A stretch of 33,235 nt of DNA from Bryobacter sp. CoA8 C33 (GTDB taxonomy: Bacteria > Acidobacteriota > Terriglobia > Bryobacterales > Bryobacteraceae): assembly GCA_019931185.1 (NCBI GenBank), contig JAINDK010000046.1:1-33235 (forward strand), read 5' to 3'. Below, one piece after another: positions 12,201 to 25,069 of the stretch; position 1 is the first letter of the stretch, and the number at the start of each line of letters is the position of its first letter. The position numbers were made by a program, and so were the translations under genes. The notes under the pieces were generated by a model, which searched no databases, was not told where the DNA came from, and worked only from the letters and a program-made list of their open reading frames with translations.

Positions 12201-12467
12201 CAGCCGGAGCGGCCGTTGTTCAAAGACGGCGAATCCGCTGGCCTCGACCGTGAGCGAATAGTCGCCGACGGGCAGCATCGGCAGGCGAAAGAGGCCATCC
12301 GCGCTCGAGGCAGTGGAGCGCTGCGCCCCGGTATTCAGGTCACGGGCGGTAACCCGGGCTTGGGCCACGGCTCGACCCGAGGGGTCGCGAACCGAACCTT
12401 CGAGCGTGGCGACGGGGTCCTGGGCCAGAGCGGCCACGGCAAACAGGACGAGGGCAGCGAATTTCAT
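9225..12467 (-). CDS. Oar-like TonB-dependent outer membrane receptor
   Basis: A 1,080-residue outer membrane protein. Signal peptide at residues 1-15 (ending ALAQ), carboxypeptidase-regulatory-like beta-sandwich at about 20-105, plug domain at about 115-250 (with LPLNGRNFTQL and the segment NGQRPESNNYLLDGARN), then a long beta-barrel ending in the outer-membrane signature LALKFTF with a terminal Phe. This architecture is typical of the large acidobacterial receptor families thought to take up oligosaccharides or peptides; the ligand cannot be inferred. A promoter (TTGAGC, 17 bases, TACACT) lies upstream, with an inverted repeat against its -35 box that resembles the one before the selenoprotein gene. 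Confidence 0.93.
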   Translation of the reverse strand: MKFAALVLFAVAALAQDPVATLEGSVRDPSGRAVAQARVTARDLNTGAQRSTASSADGLFRLPMLPVGDYSLTVEASGFAVFEQRPLRLSVSQVVQLPVGLELAASRQSVVITGDAQPVETVNNAVGKTMGTREILELPLNGRNFTQLGLLQAGVSAVTNGVSTSGGSLRAGQAYAVNGQRPESNNYLLDGARNVNRMDGGFALRIPVDAIAEFRILTHTASAEYGGTSGSTTTVITKSGTNQWHGSLYEFFRNDVYDARNFFSRAVEPLKQNQFGGTLGGPVRRDRLFVFGYYEGFRNRQGVTRSGNVPTPAQRRGDYSAQSAPLINFAGGGAPFPGNQVPASLFHPLGLKAAQLYPTGNTAPTIHTATVITTNDTNQTGLRADWRPRDNSQWNARYSFSDGQNINPISIRGSDLPGFPVRDDITTHSFSLGETHVITPNLISSIRAAIFRHTFLFDQRLNQASPREFGFNYDSASRAGQSLPFFNVNGYSPVGGAITGPRNSGQTSLEVFGSLSWNRGAHALKFGGELRRTHLNLFQAIAPNAFFVFAPSFPSSDAFANLLMGRPVVFYQGLGDLSRGLRGWENSLFAQDEWRLTRKLVLNLGLRWEVNTPFVEVRDRMNAFVPGVQSAKVPTAPRGLLFPGDPGVARGVAPVFYGAWMPRVGLAWNPDGQGRMSIRASYGIFFDPFANGSGVASQVPVSSLPWTQLVQFSGPGVNFSDPYAVMGRPAPGAFANPLTLVVLDHRARPPYAQNWNLVLQRSLGGKYVFDARYLGTKGTHLPRNVEANPAVFGPGSTAGNADRRRLYANCPASGNCDFSHVAKLSYVTNSTYHAAQAGLSRRFDSGLGFNVSYWFSKTLDYLSAMNLGGAAARPLAGENDIAQNPFDLRAERGPSLFDARHRFVASGSYALPRLSGAPVVWRRLLGSWQANVIGVVNSATPFTVFDTTNVSQQASHPPISGYSGSRPDRIANPNNGPRRVEQWLLRSSFRRLDPVADAGRFGNAGRNIARGPGLANFDFSLFKSFAPREKSALQLRAECFNLLNTPNFSVPVSDLNSANFGRILESGPARLFQLALKFTF

Positions 12468-12476
12468 CAGACCTGG

Positions 12477-12505
12477 AGTGTAGCGGTACGGCCGCTGAGG
12501 CTCAA
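12477..12505 (-). promoter_or_regulatory. Sigma-70-type promoter of the TonB receptor gene
   Basis: Read on the minus strand, TTGAGC (12505-12500) and TACACT (12482-12477) are separated by exactly 17 bases, and the -10 box lies nine bases before the ATG at 12467. The start point would therefore be very near the start codon, leaving almost no leader. Confidence 0.5.
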
Positions 12506-12523
12506 TAGTTAGAAATCACTAAC
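12502..12523. promoter_or_regulatory. Operator-like inverted repeat upstream of the TonB receptor
   Basis: Arms GTTAG (12508-12512) and CTAAC (12519-12523) flank AAATCA. On the minus strand the site reads TAGTGATTTCTAACTATTG, and its last bases merge with the -35 box TTGAGC. It shares the pattern TAGTGA, TTTCT, ACTATTG with the palindrome before the selenoprotein gene, in the same position relative to the promoter. This suggests a common regulator. Confidence 0.45.
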
Positions 12524-12861
12524 GCGGCTCGGATTGTATGGCCAGCATCAACAGAGCCGGGACGGCCGCGACTGCCGCGGCCACGCTCAACAACGCGGCA
12601 TAGGAGCCTGTGGTGTCAAACACGCGTCCCTACATGATCACACCGATGCCGCCGGCAGAGTCGCAGAAGGTCCAGGTCAATCCATACAGCGAGGCAAAGG
12701 CGCGCGAGGCCTCTTCACGGCGCCAGGGAAATTCCGCCGTCAACGGTTTGAGAAAAATGCCAAAAGTGTAGATCAGCAGCGGGCCGAAGCTCACCATCAC
12801 GGCAAGGTGCGCGGCGGCAGCCACCTTCCAACCCGGATAGGAGAGCCGCCCTTCCGCGCCG
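12519..12861 (-). pseudogene. Remnant of an MFS transporter with large internal deletion
   Basis: The leftward frame reads GWKVAAAAHLAVMVSFGPLL and on to LKPLTAEFPWRREEASRAFA, the first transmembrane helix and loop of a major facilitator transporter. It then passes straight into LYGLTWTFCDSAGGIGVIM, an in-frame TAG at about 12632, and GRVFDTTGSYAALL up to the stop at 12519, which looks like the last helices of the same family. About ten transmembrane helices are missing, and no good start codon follows the selenoprotein stop at 12862. The internal deletion plus the premature stop make this a pseudogene. It presumably once formed an operon with the upstream selenoprotein gene. Confidence 0.8.
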
Positions 12862-13458
12862 TTACTTGCGGACGTAACCGTGGAGGGCACTGCGTTTTCC
12901 TCCCTCGCGGTGCGCTTCTTCCGACAGCGCATGGACGCCGGTCGAGTCGATCCAGCGGTTGTAGAAGTTGAACAGCGAGCAGACCGTGATGGCGTAGTAG
13001 ATTTGTTCATCGTTCCAGCCGGCGGCATGAAGCGGTTCCATGTCGGCAGCCGTGATGGAAGGGGATTCGTGATTGACCTTGTCGAGAAAGCGCAGCATGG
13101 TCTTCTCGGCGGGAGACAGCGCCGAGGTCTCGAAGTCGTTCATGACGGCTTCGACCAGCGCCGCATCGTTCAGCAGTTCCGCCGCGACCGCGGCGTGCGA
13201 CTTCGTTCAAAACGGGCAGTGATTGCGCGCCGAAGTATAGGCGGCAATCAACTCGCGAAAGGCCGGCGTCAGGGGCGCTTCCTCGCGCATGATCTCCTGC
13301 GTGAAGCGCGCCAGATGCTCGGTCGCCAAGGGCTTGAAGGCGAATAGGTGCCAGATCTGCGGGTACTCCTGGCCGGTGCGCTGCATCGCCTCGATGGCGC
13401 GCGCCCAGGGCGAGGGCTGGGGGTTGGCTTCCACCGCGGGCAGGTACATTGGTCTCAT
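12862..13458 (-). CDS. AhpD/carboxymuconolactone-decarboxylase-like selenoprotein (CxxU), in-frame TGA
   Basis: Two adjacent frames (13207-13458 and 12862-13206) are one gene of 198 codons interrupted only by TGA at 13209-13207. Across the junction the protein reads AYTSARNHCPF-U-TKSHAAVAAELL, which is the AhpD-like thiol peroxidase signature with the second cysteine of CxxC replaced by the TGA. I therefore read C81-P-F-U84 with selenocysteine. Homology continues without shift on both sides (HLARFTQEIMREE before; YYAITVCSLFNFYNRWID after). A 6-bp stem with a GGUC loop follows the TGA at bacterial SECIS distance. AhpD-like selenoproteins are an established group. Function: probably reduction of peroxides or disulfides. 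A single point nonsense mutation is the alternative. The gene has its own promoter and is followed by an MFS pseudogene. Confidence 0.8.
13180..13195 (-). promoter_or_regulatory. Candidate bacterial SECIS hairpin
   Basis: On the minus strand CGCCGC-GGTC-GCGGCG forms six GC pairs with a four-base loop. The loop begins 18 bases after the TGA, and its first two bases are GG. Bacterial SECIS elements usually have a short stem, a loop with G among its first two bases, and about 16-37 bases between UGA and loop, so it fits. Short GC hairpins are common in GC-rich DNA, so this is supporting evidence only. Confidence 0.55.
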
Positions 13459-13469
13459 GGTGCTTCGAG

Positions 13470-13497
13470 ATTATGTGGCACGCCGTGGCGCGAACAA
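13470..13497 (-). promoter_or_regulatory. Promoter of the selenoprotein gene
   Basis: On the minus strand TTGTTC (13497-13492) and CATAAT (13475-13470) are 16 bases apart, and the -10 box lies 11 bases before the ATG at 13458. The -35 box overlaps the end of a 22-base inverted repeat. Confidence 0.45.
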
Positions 13498-13516
13498 TAG
13501 TAGAAATTCACTATTG
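13495..13516. promoter_or_regulatory. Operator-like palindrome between the selenoprotein and kinase genes
   Basis: Perfect seven-base arms CAATAGT (13495-13501) and ACTATTG (13510-13516) flank an eight-base centre, AGAAATTC. It overlaps the -35 box of the selenoprotein promoter and lies 33 bases before the ATG of the histidine kinase, so it could control both directions. A related site precedes the TonB receptor. The neighbouring LuxR-type regulator is the obvious candidate binder, by inference only. Confidence 0.55.
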
Positions 13517-13549
13517 CCGGCGGCGCGGGCTTAACCTGAGAACAGGAAG

Positions 13550-14866
13550 ATGCAGTCGCCCACCAGTCGCCTCGTTGCCGGCCTGGCGTTCACGCTTTTG
13601 GTGATCAGCGCTTATGCATTTTATTCGCTGCGCTCGGTCTGGCGTCTGCGCGACACGCAAACCCGGATCGTCGACCGCAACCGCCAGGCATCCACGCAGT
13701 TGCTGCGGATCCAGGGCGAACTCAACACGCTTGGGTTGACGGTGCGCGAAATGCTCGATGAGAAGCCGGACTATCCGCTCGAAGCCTGGCAGGCGCCCTT
13801 GCGGCGAGTCCGCGAGAATCTCGACGACGCACTGCGGCGTGAGGCTGAACTTTCCGCTGGCATGCGCGCGCCGCAGCAATCGCAATATCTGGCGGCGACT
13901 CTGGCCGAGTTCTGGCGCGCGGCGGCGGAAGCCATGGAGGCGGCCCGGGCCGGAGACCGCGCAAGGGCCTTGATGCTGATCCGCAATTCGCTGCAGCCTG
14001 GTCTTGCGTCGCTGCACTCAGTCACAGCCCGCTGGCTGGTGGACAGCAACGACGAAGAGGCCCGCGCCTCCGAACAGGTGCGCGCGCTCTTCAGCGAAAT
14101 CGAACGCAATGCCTATATCTTTCTGGCCCTGTCTCTGGCCTTGATCGTGCTGACCAGCCTCGGGCTGATTCATTCCAATCGCGCTCTGTTCGCCCAACTG
14201 GGGGCCCTCGCTGAACAGCGCAGCGATTTGGCGCGGCAGTTGATCGCGACGCAGGAATCGACGTTCCGCTCGATCTCCCGAGACTTGCACGACGAGTTTG
14301 GCCAGATTCTCACCGCTCTGGGCGCGCTCTTGCGCAACGCCCGCAAGCATGCCCCCGGATCCGCCTTTGAGGAGAAGACCCTCGAGGCTAGCACCATTGT
14401 CCAGCGGACGCTCGAGCGCATCCGCTCGCTGTCGCAATCCCTGCAGCCCGTCATTCTCGAGGAACAAGGCTTGCTGGCCGCCGTTGAGTGGCAATTGGCG
14501 GGATTTGAACGCCACACCGGCATCGCCGTGCGCTATCGTGGGCCGCGGGAACCCGTGGAGGTCCGCGCCTCGCAGGCCATTCATGTTTTTCGCATCCTGC
14601 AGGAATCCCTAAACAATGTGGCGCGTCATGCCCAGGTCGGCGAGGTCGATGTGATGCTGCGGGTGGAGAACGCGCGATTGATCCTTCGCGTTGCCGACCA
14701 GGGAACCGGCCTGCGCGAAAACGCGCCGCAAGGTCTGGGGCTTGCCGCCATGCGCGAGCGGGCGGGGCTGATTGACGGCACGCTCGACATTGTGTCGAAG
14801 GGCGGCGGCACCGTGGTGACACTGTCGGCGCCGCTGGCTCTCGAGGAGGCCCTCGTTGAACCCTGA
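13550..14866 (+). CDS. NarL-type sensor histidine kinase
   Basis: A 438-residue membrane sensor kinase. Transmembrane helices at about residues 7-26 and 188-208 enclose a helical extracytoplasmic sensor of about 160 residues. It is followed by a HisKA_3 dimerisation domain with phospho-acceptor H247 in SRDLHDEFGQ, and an HATPase_c domain with the N-box QESLNNVARHA (351-361), D383-Q-G in the G1 box and GLGL at 395-398. It phosphorylates the response regulator encoded next, whose TTG start lies inside its last codons (11-base overlap). The signal is not known. The start is the ATG with AGGAAG directly upstream. Divergent transcription from the selenoprotein gene suggests a redox or peroxide stimulus, which is inference. 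Confidence 0.92.
   Translation: MQSPTSRLVAGLAFTLLVISAYAFYSLRSVWRLRDTQTRIVDRNRQASTQLLRIQGELNTLGLTVREMLDEKPDYPLEAWQAPLRRVRENLDDALRREAELSAGMRAPQQSQYLAATLAEFWRAAAEAMEAARAGDRARALMLIRNSLQPGLASLHSVTARWLVDSNDEEARASEQVRALFSEIERNAYIFLALSLALIVLTSLGLIHSNRALFAQLGALAEQRSDLARQLIATQESTFRSISRDLHDEFGQILTALGALLRNARKHAPGSAFEEKTLEASTIVQRTLERIRSLSQSLQPVILEEQGLLAAVEWQLAGFERHTGIAVRYRGPREPVEVRASQAIHVFRILQESLNNVARHAQVGEVDVMLRVENARLILRVADQGTGLRENAPQGLGLAAMRERAGLIDGTLDIVSKGGGTVVTLSAPLALEEALVEP
14844..14849 (+). promoter_or_regulatory. Shine-Dalgarno deciding the TTG start of the response regulator
   Basis: AGGAGG within the end of the kinase gene lies six bases before TTG at 14856. It fixes a TTG start and shows translational coupling. 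Confidence 0.7.
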
Positions 14867-15491
14867 TCCGCGACCCATAAGGGTTCTGCTGGTTGATGAC
14901 CATGCCCTCGTGCGGCTGGGATTCCGGCGGCTACTCGAGGATGAAGCGGGCATTACCGTCGTCGGCGAGGCGAGCGACGGGGCCGAGGCCGTGGTGCTGG
15001 CTGAACAGCTCCGGCCCGACGTCGTGGTGATGGACTACGCCCTGCCCGTGCAGAATGGCGCGCAGGCCACGCGCACCATTCGCGGAAAGCTGCCGGCGGT
15101 GCGCGTGCTGATGTTGAGCATGCACGCCGAGCCCAGCTATGCCGCCCGCAGCCGCGAGGCCGGCGCTTCCGGCTATTTGCTCAAGAATGCGCTCGATCTT
15201 GAACTTGTGGCCTTCGTGCGGCGGGTGATGACGGAGGATTGGGTCGCCGACCCGCGGCTCGAACAGGCCGCCTTCGGCGCCGAGGCCGGCCACAATCTGA
15301 GCAAGCGCGAGCTCGAAGTGCTGCAGCACATTGTTGCCGGGGCTTCCAATAAGGAGATCGCGGCCCGGCTCGGCTTGAGCGTCAATACAGTAAACGTGCA
15401 CCGGGCAAACATCATGGAGACACTGCAGATTCGCAACACGGCCGAGCTGGTCGTTTACGCCATTCGCCACGGCCTGGCGCCTCTGCCATGA
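14856..15491 (+). CDS. LuxR/NarL-family response regulator
   Basis: A 211-residue DNA-binding response regulator. The receiver domain has acidic residues D14-D15, phospho-acceptor D60 in VVVMDYALP and a conserved Lys in GYLLKNA. The C-terminal LuxR-type helix-turn-helix includes LSKRELEVLQHIVAG and the segment NKEIAARLGLSVNTVNVHR. It is the cognate partner of the overlapping upstream kinase. The start is TTG at 14856, preceded by a perfect AGGAGG. Its stop overlaps the ATG of the next gene (ATGA), so the three genes form a tightly coupled operon. Dimeric regulators of this type bind inverted repeats, and palindromes that could be its sites lie at 13495-13516 and 12502-12523. Confidence 0.93.
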   Translation: MNPDPRPIRVLLVDDHALVRLGFRRLLEDEAGITVVGEASDGAEAVVLAEQLRPDVVVMDYALPVQNGAQATRTIRGKLPAVRVLMLSMHAEPSYAARSREAGASGYLLKNALDLELVAFVRRVMTEDWVADPRLEQAAFGAEAGHNLSKRELEVLQHIVAGASNKEIAARLGLSVNTVNVHRANIMETLQIRNTAELVVYAIRHGLAPLP

Positions 15492-24898: not shown

Positions 24899-25069
24899 AT
24901 GAAGAACGCTACCAAGGCTCCGGCGAAGAAAGCCGCTCCAGCCAAGAAGGCCGCTCCGGCTAAGAAAGCCGCTCCGGCCAAGAAAGCCGCTCCGGCCAAG
25001 AAGGCTGCTCCGGCCAAGAAAGCCGCTCCGGCCAAGAAGGCTGCTCCGGCTAAGAAGGCCGGCAAGTAG
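24899..25069 (+). CDS. 56-residue Ala/Lys/Pro repeat protein, histone H1-like
   Basis: The ATG at 24899 opens a frame of 56 codons: MKNATK, then APAKK, seven perfect repeats of AAPAKK (24932-25057) and AGK. The product is extremely basic, with no acidic residue, and resembles the lysine/alanine/proline-rich tails of bacterial histone H1-like proteins, AlgP and actinobacterial HupB, which bind DNA non-specifically. I infer a nucleoid or RNA-binding role. AGGGAG lies about ten bases upstream. A strong promoter, a leader hairpin and an excellent intrinsic terminator enclose the gene as an independent unit. The 18-base DNA repeats vary synonymously (AAG/AAA, GCC/GCT), so the peptide repeat is under selection or amplification is not recent. 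Confidence 0.8.
   Translation: MKNATKAPAKKAAPAKKAAPAKKAAPAKKAAPAKKAAPAKKAAPAKKAAPAKKAGK
24917..25057 (+). repeat. Tandem 18-base coding repeats
   Basis: One partial (15-base) and seven full 18-base units of the form GCCGCTCCGGCCAAGAAG occur head to tail with only synonymous differences. They encode AAPAKK. Repeat-number variation by slippage is likely between strains. Confidence 0.9.

Follow-up and report, generated by a model that had tools for sequence, protein, structure and literature searches.

Organization of the locus

The window (the whole 33,235-nucleotide stretch analyzed here, from Bryobacter sp. CoA8 C33) carries on its reverse strand an AhpD-like (TIGR01926) gene of 198 codons, at positions 12862 to 13458, with an in-frame TGA at 13207 to 13209 (codon 84) that is very probably read as selenocysteine. 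The gene contains a bSECIS-like hairpin after the TGA, is preceded by a palindromic element and is followed by the remnant of an MFS transporter gene. A two-component system is divergent from it, as is a gene for an ASPIC/UnbV protein. Elsewhere in the window, positions 24917 to 25061 hold a tandem array of about eight copies of the 18-base unit GCTCCGGCCAAGAAAGCC, which could encode an Ala/Pro/Lys repeat.

The first-pass annotation, made from the sequence alone, had described a continuous frame split by one TGA at the second cysteine of an AhpD-type CxxC motif, with homology unbroken on either side, and all of these points held. The frame from 13458 to 12862 is open apart from the single TGA (13209-13207), and one match to NCBIfam TIGR01926 (peroxidase-related/AhpD-like; 100.9 bits, cut-off 81.8) extends over residues 20 to 174, on both sides of codon 84. 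The 198-codon product also matches Pfam CMD (34.3 bits, cut-off 23). With U at the TGA, the site reads N-H-C-P-F-U-T-K-S-H, giving the motif C81-P-F-U84-T-K-S-H88, and the AhpD catalytic set E-x11-C-x2-[C/U]-x3-H is present as E69, C81, U84, and H88. The locus offers a clean, checkable selenoprotein, though plain ORF finding cuts its gene into two pieces (12862 to 13143 and 13207 to 13458).

Conservation of the TGA among relatives

A scan of genome contigs yielded 58 related loci, of which 47 carry TGA at the column of codon 84, nine carry Cys (L044, L047, L050, L051, L052, L054, L055, L056, and L061), and two are unreadable. The latter, L064 with a broken frame and L066 ending before the column, were left out of the Sec/Cys counts. 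Neither TAA nor TAG occurs at this position in any of the 56 readable loci. The pattern characteristic of bacterial selenoproteins, in which an in-frame UGA occupies a redox position where homologues have Cys, is therefore found here, in agreement with the first-pass expectation that an alignment would show Sec or Cys at this column. The TGA loci come from records labelled Acidobacteriota, Gemmatimonadota, Myxococcota, or Planctomycetota, i.e., the UGA is retained across many Acidobacteriota and some records that bear the other three labels. In a tree of 56 rows (L063, L064, and L066 left out), in which the closest relative is 79% identical over 198 columns, the Sec rows and the Cys rows form the two sides of one branch (support 95/90). 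Since each state makes up one group, the sample holds approximately one Sec/Cys change, and few independent events lie behind the correlation with SelB described below.

Among 41 near-relative genomes, 12 (own included) have a match that contains one TGA and is 56% or more identical, and the column was read in nine of the other 11 (L098 to L106), with TGA in 9/9. The SelB coordinates are identical between G468 and G035 and between G457 and G026; the near relatives are thus partly the same genomes as those of the 58-locus set and not all of them are extra evidence. The first-pass annotation had named TGC or TGT in close relatives, together with other decay of this copy, as the mark of a nonsense mutation; the close relatives that were read have TGA, with no TGC or TGT, and the frame contains no other stop.

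Within the genus (eight genomes), the gene is patchy, with a readable TGA copy only in the own genome and in G457. An end piece of 51 residues (59% identity) is all that is found in G458, at a contig edge, and the best matches in G454, G455, G456, G459, and G460 are 44-49% identical and stop-free. Four of the six that have no readable copy (G454, G455, G456, and G458) had SelB above cut-off. The own genome also encodes a Cys paralogue (L068, contig C103, 20187 to 20792) with the site ECSFCRDAH, 42% identical to the selenoprotein.

At the level of the phylum, some AhpD-like match was obtained in 159 of 396 sampled genomes. One distant match, L097, reads CHYULEGH. The column is TGA in 11 (the window itself included) and Cys in 20 of the 31 loci L067 to L097. 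Many distant matches are listed with a TGA somewhere in their length, and L086, listed with one TGA, has Cys at the column, so a listed TGA in a distant match is not always Sec. On the basis of the many distant matches listed with one TGA, further AhpD-type selenoproteins may be common in the phylum.

Selenocysteine machinery and distribution of SelB

The own assembly (5.05 Mb in 138 contigs, 97.66% complete) encodes the full selenocysteine machinery. The tRNA-Sec scored 73.4 bits (gathering score 47) and was also reported by ARAGORN as tRNA-SeC with anticodon tca, and the proteins SelB (354 bits, cut-off 242), SelA (467 bits, cut-off 268), and SelD (351 bits, cut-off 125; its frame contains one TGA) were all recovered. 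Absence of selA, selB, selC, and selD, which the first-pass annotation had regarded as fatal to a selenocysteine reading, can thus be set aside. In the reading used, the TGA of the selD gene (L007, contig C110, 10145 to 11068) is codon 14 (AAG-U-ASK), and a strong hairpin of eight pairs, with the loop GGU, comes after it; the genome accordingly has at least one further gene for a selenoprotein, likewise with such a hairpin.

Across genomes, 46 of the 48 that carry the TGA (the window's included) have SelB above cut-off, compared to 0/9 of those with Cys. A first batch gave 39 of 50 (39/41 TGA genomes and 0/9 Cys genomes), and a second gave seven of nine, namely the own genome and six TGA genomes, the misses being the genomes of L064 and L066. 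The two TGA genomes that lack SelB above cut-off are those of L033 and L048. The Fisher value of 6e-9 for SelB versus TGA ignores relatedness and is drawn from genomes of unstated completeness. In the near relatives, a search of 27 genomes gave 20 with SelB above cut-off. Four of the 11 TGA-bearing near relatives (at least 56% identity) are without it (G463, G466, G472, and G480); G466, G472, and G480 give SelB matches in pieces only, and G463 seems to be the L048 genome counted a second time.

The hairpin downstream of the TGA

A bSECIS-like hairpin with the stem CGCCGC/GCGGCG and the loop GGUC lies at 13180 to 13195 on the reverse strand, in columns 15 to 30 when the TGA is counted as 1 to 3. 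This confirms the six-pair GC stem and GGUC loop described at first pass; 17 nt separate the TGA from the loop, so the loop begins at base 18. The further proposal that the fold would agree with bSECIS models stood with respect to the published rules and the covariation and fell with respect to energy, which is no better than that of shuffles. According to the portion of a 2026 review available to us (PMC13188914), a bSECIS has a loop of 3-9 nt whose first two bases include G, a stem of 4-16 bp, a distance of 16-37 nt from the UGA, and an MFE of at most -7.5, and the bases that flank the G-G/U of the loop form a pair. The hairpin conforms to every one of these rules (loop GGUC, 6 bp, 17 nt, -13.6 kcal/mol). 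This energy, computed for the 43-nt segment that begins with the TGA, has a z of -0.12 and is reached by 85 of 200 shuffles. Since shuffles reach this energy in GC-rich DNA, folding energy alone proves nothing and was rejected as evidence for the hairpin. A named Rfam element was likewise rejected, with 0 Rfam matches at the gathering score in the window.

The covariation was assessed in an alignment (A1) of 57 rows, 52 of them distinct, which comprises the window, the 47 TGA loci of the 58-locus set, and nine loci from the phylum search; a second, unrelated TGA match in L080 was left out. In A1, 97.8% of 364 cells are paired, and four of the seven pairs changed on both sides. None of 500 shuffles (0/500) reaches any of five measures, a type of test that relatedness inflates. 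When the pairing scheme was slid along the alignment, 26-80% of cells paired and both-side changes numbered at most two cells, versus 22 in the hairpin. Pairing is weakest at the outer positions, 15-30 (broken in 6/52). The loop-flanking pair 21-24, both columns of which are third codon positions, is GC in 37, AU in 13, CG in one, and GU in one of the 52 distinct rows and is broken in none, and its AU state is dispersed over the tree (L010, L025, L027, L028, L034/L036, L037, L040, L041, L046, and L057). The synonymous pairs 18-27 and 21-24 are jointly formed in 47 of 48 TGA genes versus 0/9 Cys genes, where the genes' own codon usage would lead one to expect about 20%. As judged from aligned sequences, the comparative evidence for the predicted hairpin is strong, and its covariation at synonymous sites illustrates the published bSECIS loop pair well in natural sequences. 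In L063, at approximately 2178-2230, the hairpin sequence occurs twice, flanking two N, which is probably an assembly fault at the hairpin.

Neighboring genes and the upstream palindrome

Downstream of the selenoprotein gene, the start and end parts of an MFS transporter gene adjoin at 12890 to 12519 on the reverse strand, with one stop between them. In five relatives (L012, L017, L025, L032, and L041), ~0.9 kb separates the two MFS ends, which share a strand and follow the same gene, and the frame is intact where listed (420 aa in L012 and 407 aa in L017). The remnant in the window reflects an internal deletion or an assembly fault. A 433-aa MFS frame is also found directly before the AhpD-like gene of the Cys locus L047. 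The counterparts in relatives are of the monocarboxylate type, the best NCBIfam match of the L012, L017, and L047 proteins being an L-lactate carrier model, below its cut-off.

The divergent two-component system (13550 to 15491, forward strand) consists of a HisKA_3 kinase (13550 to 14866) and a LuxR-type response regulator (14856 to 15491). For the kinase the closest model is MctS (109 bits, with UhpB at 107), and for the regulator MctR (170 bits); none of these scores reaches its cut-off. In L009, L013, L014, L015, L018, and L023, the kinase and regulator genes immediately follow the Sec gene and share its strand.

The palindromic element TAGTGAATTTCTACTATTG, a putative regulator site, occupies 13495 to 13513 on the reverse strand, 55 nt before the ATG. 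The pattern TAGTNNNTTTCNACTATTG matches this upstream site without mismatches and a second site, before a TonB-dependent receptor gene (12503 to 12521, reverse strand), with two. Among the 47 TGA relatives, 11 have the palindrome 53-71 nt before the ATG with up to three mismatches; it is present in nine of the 11 loci where a kinase match lies close by (not in L020 and L046) versus 2/36 others. It also occurs near the projected start of the receptor gene in L040 (one mismatch) and L017 (three mismatches). Overall, 18 matches were obtained in 344 kb, versus 3, 1, and 1 in three single-base shuffles, and of these 18, 11 are the upstream sites and one is the other strand of the same site. The pattern was picked after inspection of the window and ten upstream sequences, four of which (L011, L017, L019, and L026) are without an upstream match, and the search covered flanks of at most 3 kb, with L013-L015 as near copies. 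A promoter noted by eye around the palindrome was dropped after a scan of 12400 to 13600 gave 0 sigma-70-like sites.

Regulation of the palindrome by the two-component system is a lead, not a result, and coupling of the transcription of the selenoprotein gene to this adjacent system is conceivable, if somewhat doubtful. A broader scheme can be imagined, i.e., a conserved Bryobacterales-like regulon in which an MctSR-like system would bind TAGTNNNTTTCNACTATTG before the Sec-AhpD and TonB-dependent receptor genes and in which, with the monocarboxylate-type MFS transporter, a selenium-dependent redox step would be tied to substrate uptake and not to general peroxide defence. We consider this regulon unlikely, and, like the coupling, slightly more so because the scan gave no promoter-like site around the palindrome. 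The palindrome and the neighboring genes nevertheless provide a testable lead on the role of the little-studied AhpD-like selenoproteins.

Decoding of the UGA and predicted function

The computed reading frame, conserved UGA, Sec machinery, and covarying hairpin support the selenocysteine reading put forward at first pass, and we infer that the gene almost certainly encodes an AhpD-like selenoprotein with Sec inserted at codon 84. In the proposed mechanism, SelB with Sec-tRNA(Sec) would decode this UGA under the direction of the hairpin, which begins after an 11-base interval. The product would be a small thiol/selenol oxidoreductase, its centre formed by C81-x-x-U84 and its AhpD-type proton relay by E69 and H88. 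The U84 selenolate would most likely serve to reduce a peroxide or else a partner protein; the resolution step would most likely proceed through a selenylsulfide between U84 and C81. Peroxidase or AhpD-type adaptor activity is a fairly probable function.

Alternatively, the UGA may encode Sec in a product that is no peroxidase, functioning as a redox adaptor or a carboxylate-uptake enzyme. The below-cut-off resemblance of the MFS neighbors in L012, L017, and L047 to the L-lactate carrier model and of the two-component neighbors to MctS/MctR points in this direction, whereas the retention of all four AhpD catalytic residues (E69, C81, U84, and H88) and the names of the eight matched solved sequences, most of them peroxidase-related or AhpD, argue for a peroxidase; we regard the alternative as plausible but the less probable outcome. 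Generic readthrough, or an altered code with UGA read as Trp or Cys, would account for the open frame past the UGA and is very hard to reconcile with the fact that in the relatives read the UGA occupies the column of the redox Cys, with the lack of SelB above cut-off in the nine Cys genomes, with a hairpin pairing that UGA genes maintain and Cys genes do not, and with the tRNA-Sec in the genome, so that we give it hardly any weight. A Cys gene interrupted by a nonsense mutation or an assembly error, leaving a pseudogene or two truncated genes, would fit a lone stop in an otherwise intact frame beside a truly broken MFS gene and is extremely improbable, because the TGA is kept at the identical column in 47 relatives (with no TAA or TAG), which leads us to reject a nonsense mutation and makes a sequencing error at the TGA unlikely, and because the Sec machinery is complete and the hairpin covaries.

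Comparison with known AhpD-like proteins

As a selenoprotein gene, the locus is a well-conserved member of a family already in print. In the part of its text accessible to us, the 2026 review (PMC13188914) lists the "AhpD-like protein, TIGR01926, CxxU" as a selenoprotein family with MCB9421940.1 as the example and credits it to its reference 59, the 2005 Sargasso Sea paper, which in its accessible part describes 27 AhpD-like CxxU selenoproteins (PMC1088965). Excerpts of other studies give two AhpD-like groups with 299 and 70 selenoproteins (PMC2398784), four selenoproteins in three families for Acidobacteria (PMC1794560), and three selenoprotein genes for Occallatibacter riparius (PMC12013277). 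With both the TIGR01926 CxxU family and Acidobacteria selenoproteins in print, the present kind of selenoprotein is already known; a partial survey of the open-licence literature found no paper on this AhpD-like protein in Acidobacteriota. The window's gene shares with the listed family both the NCBIfam assignment and the CxxU at the redox pair, and at this level of family assignment and motif no distinguishing difference was found.

The NCBIfam model NF041238 (AhpD_rel_CFYUT, alkylhydroperoxidase-related (seleno)protein; profile of 357 positions) represents a related sequence with CxxU in common, but the product scores 48.5 bits against it, far below the 175-bit cut-off. The best solved relatives by sequence, PDB 2oyo (E 3.5e-18) and 6k40 (E 6.8e-18), are peroxidase-related/AhpD proteins and both have Cys at the Sec column. 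In AhpD, the second Cys is the one that attacks the peroxide. The relay set of AhpD is E118, C130, C133, and H137 in the available part of the published description, and the spacing of E69, C81, U84, and H88 is alike that of the M. tuberculosis and P. aeruginosa Cys enzymes (PMC3141380). Phe83 stands in place of AhpD His132, a position that the same excerpt calls not absolutely conserved, and at the next residue Sec replaces the second Cys of these two enzymes (PMC3141380).
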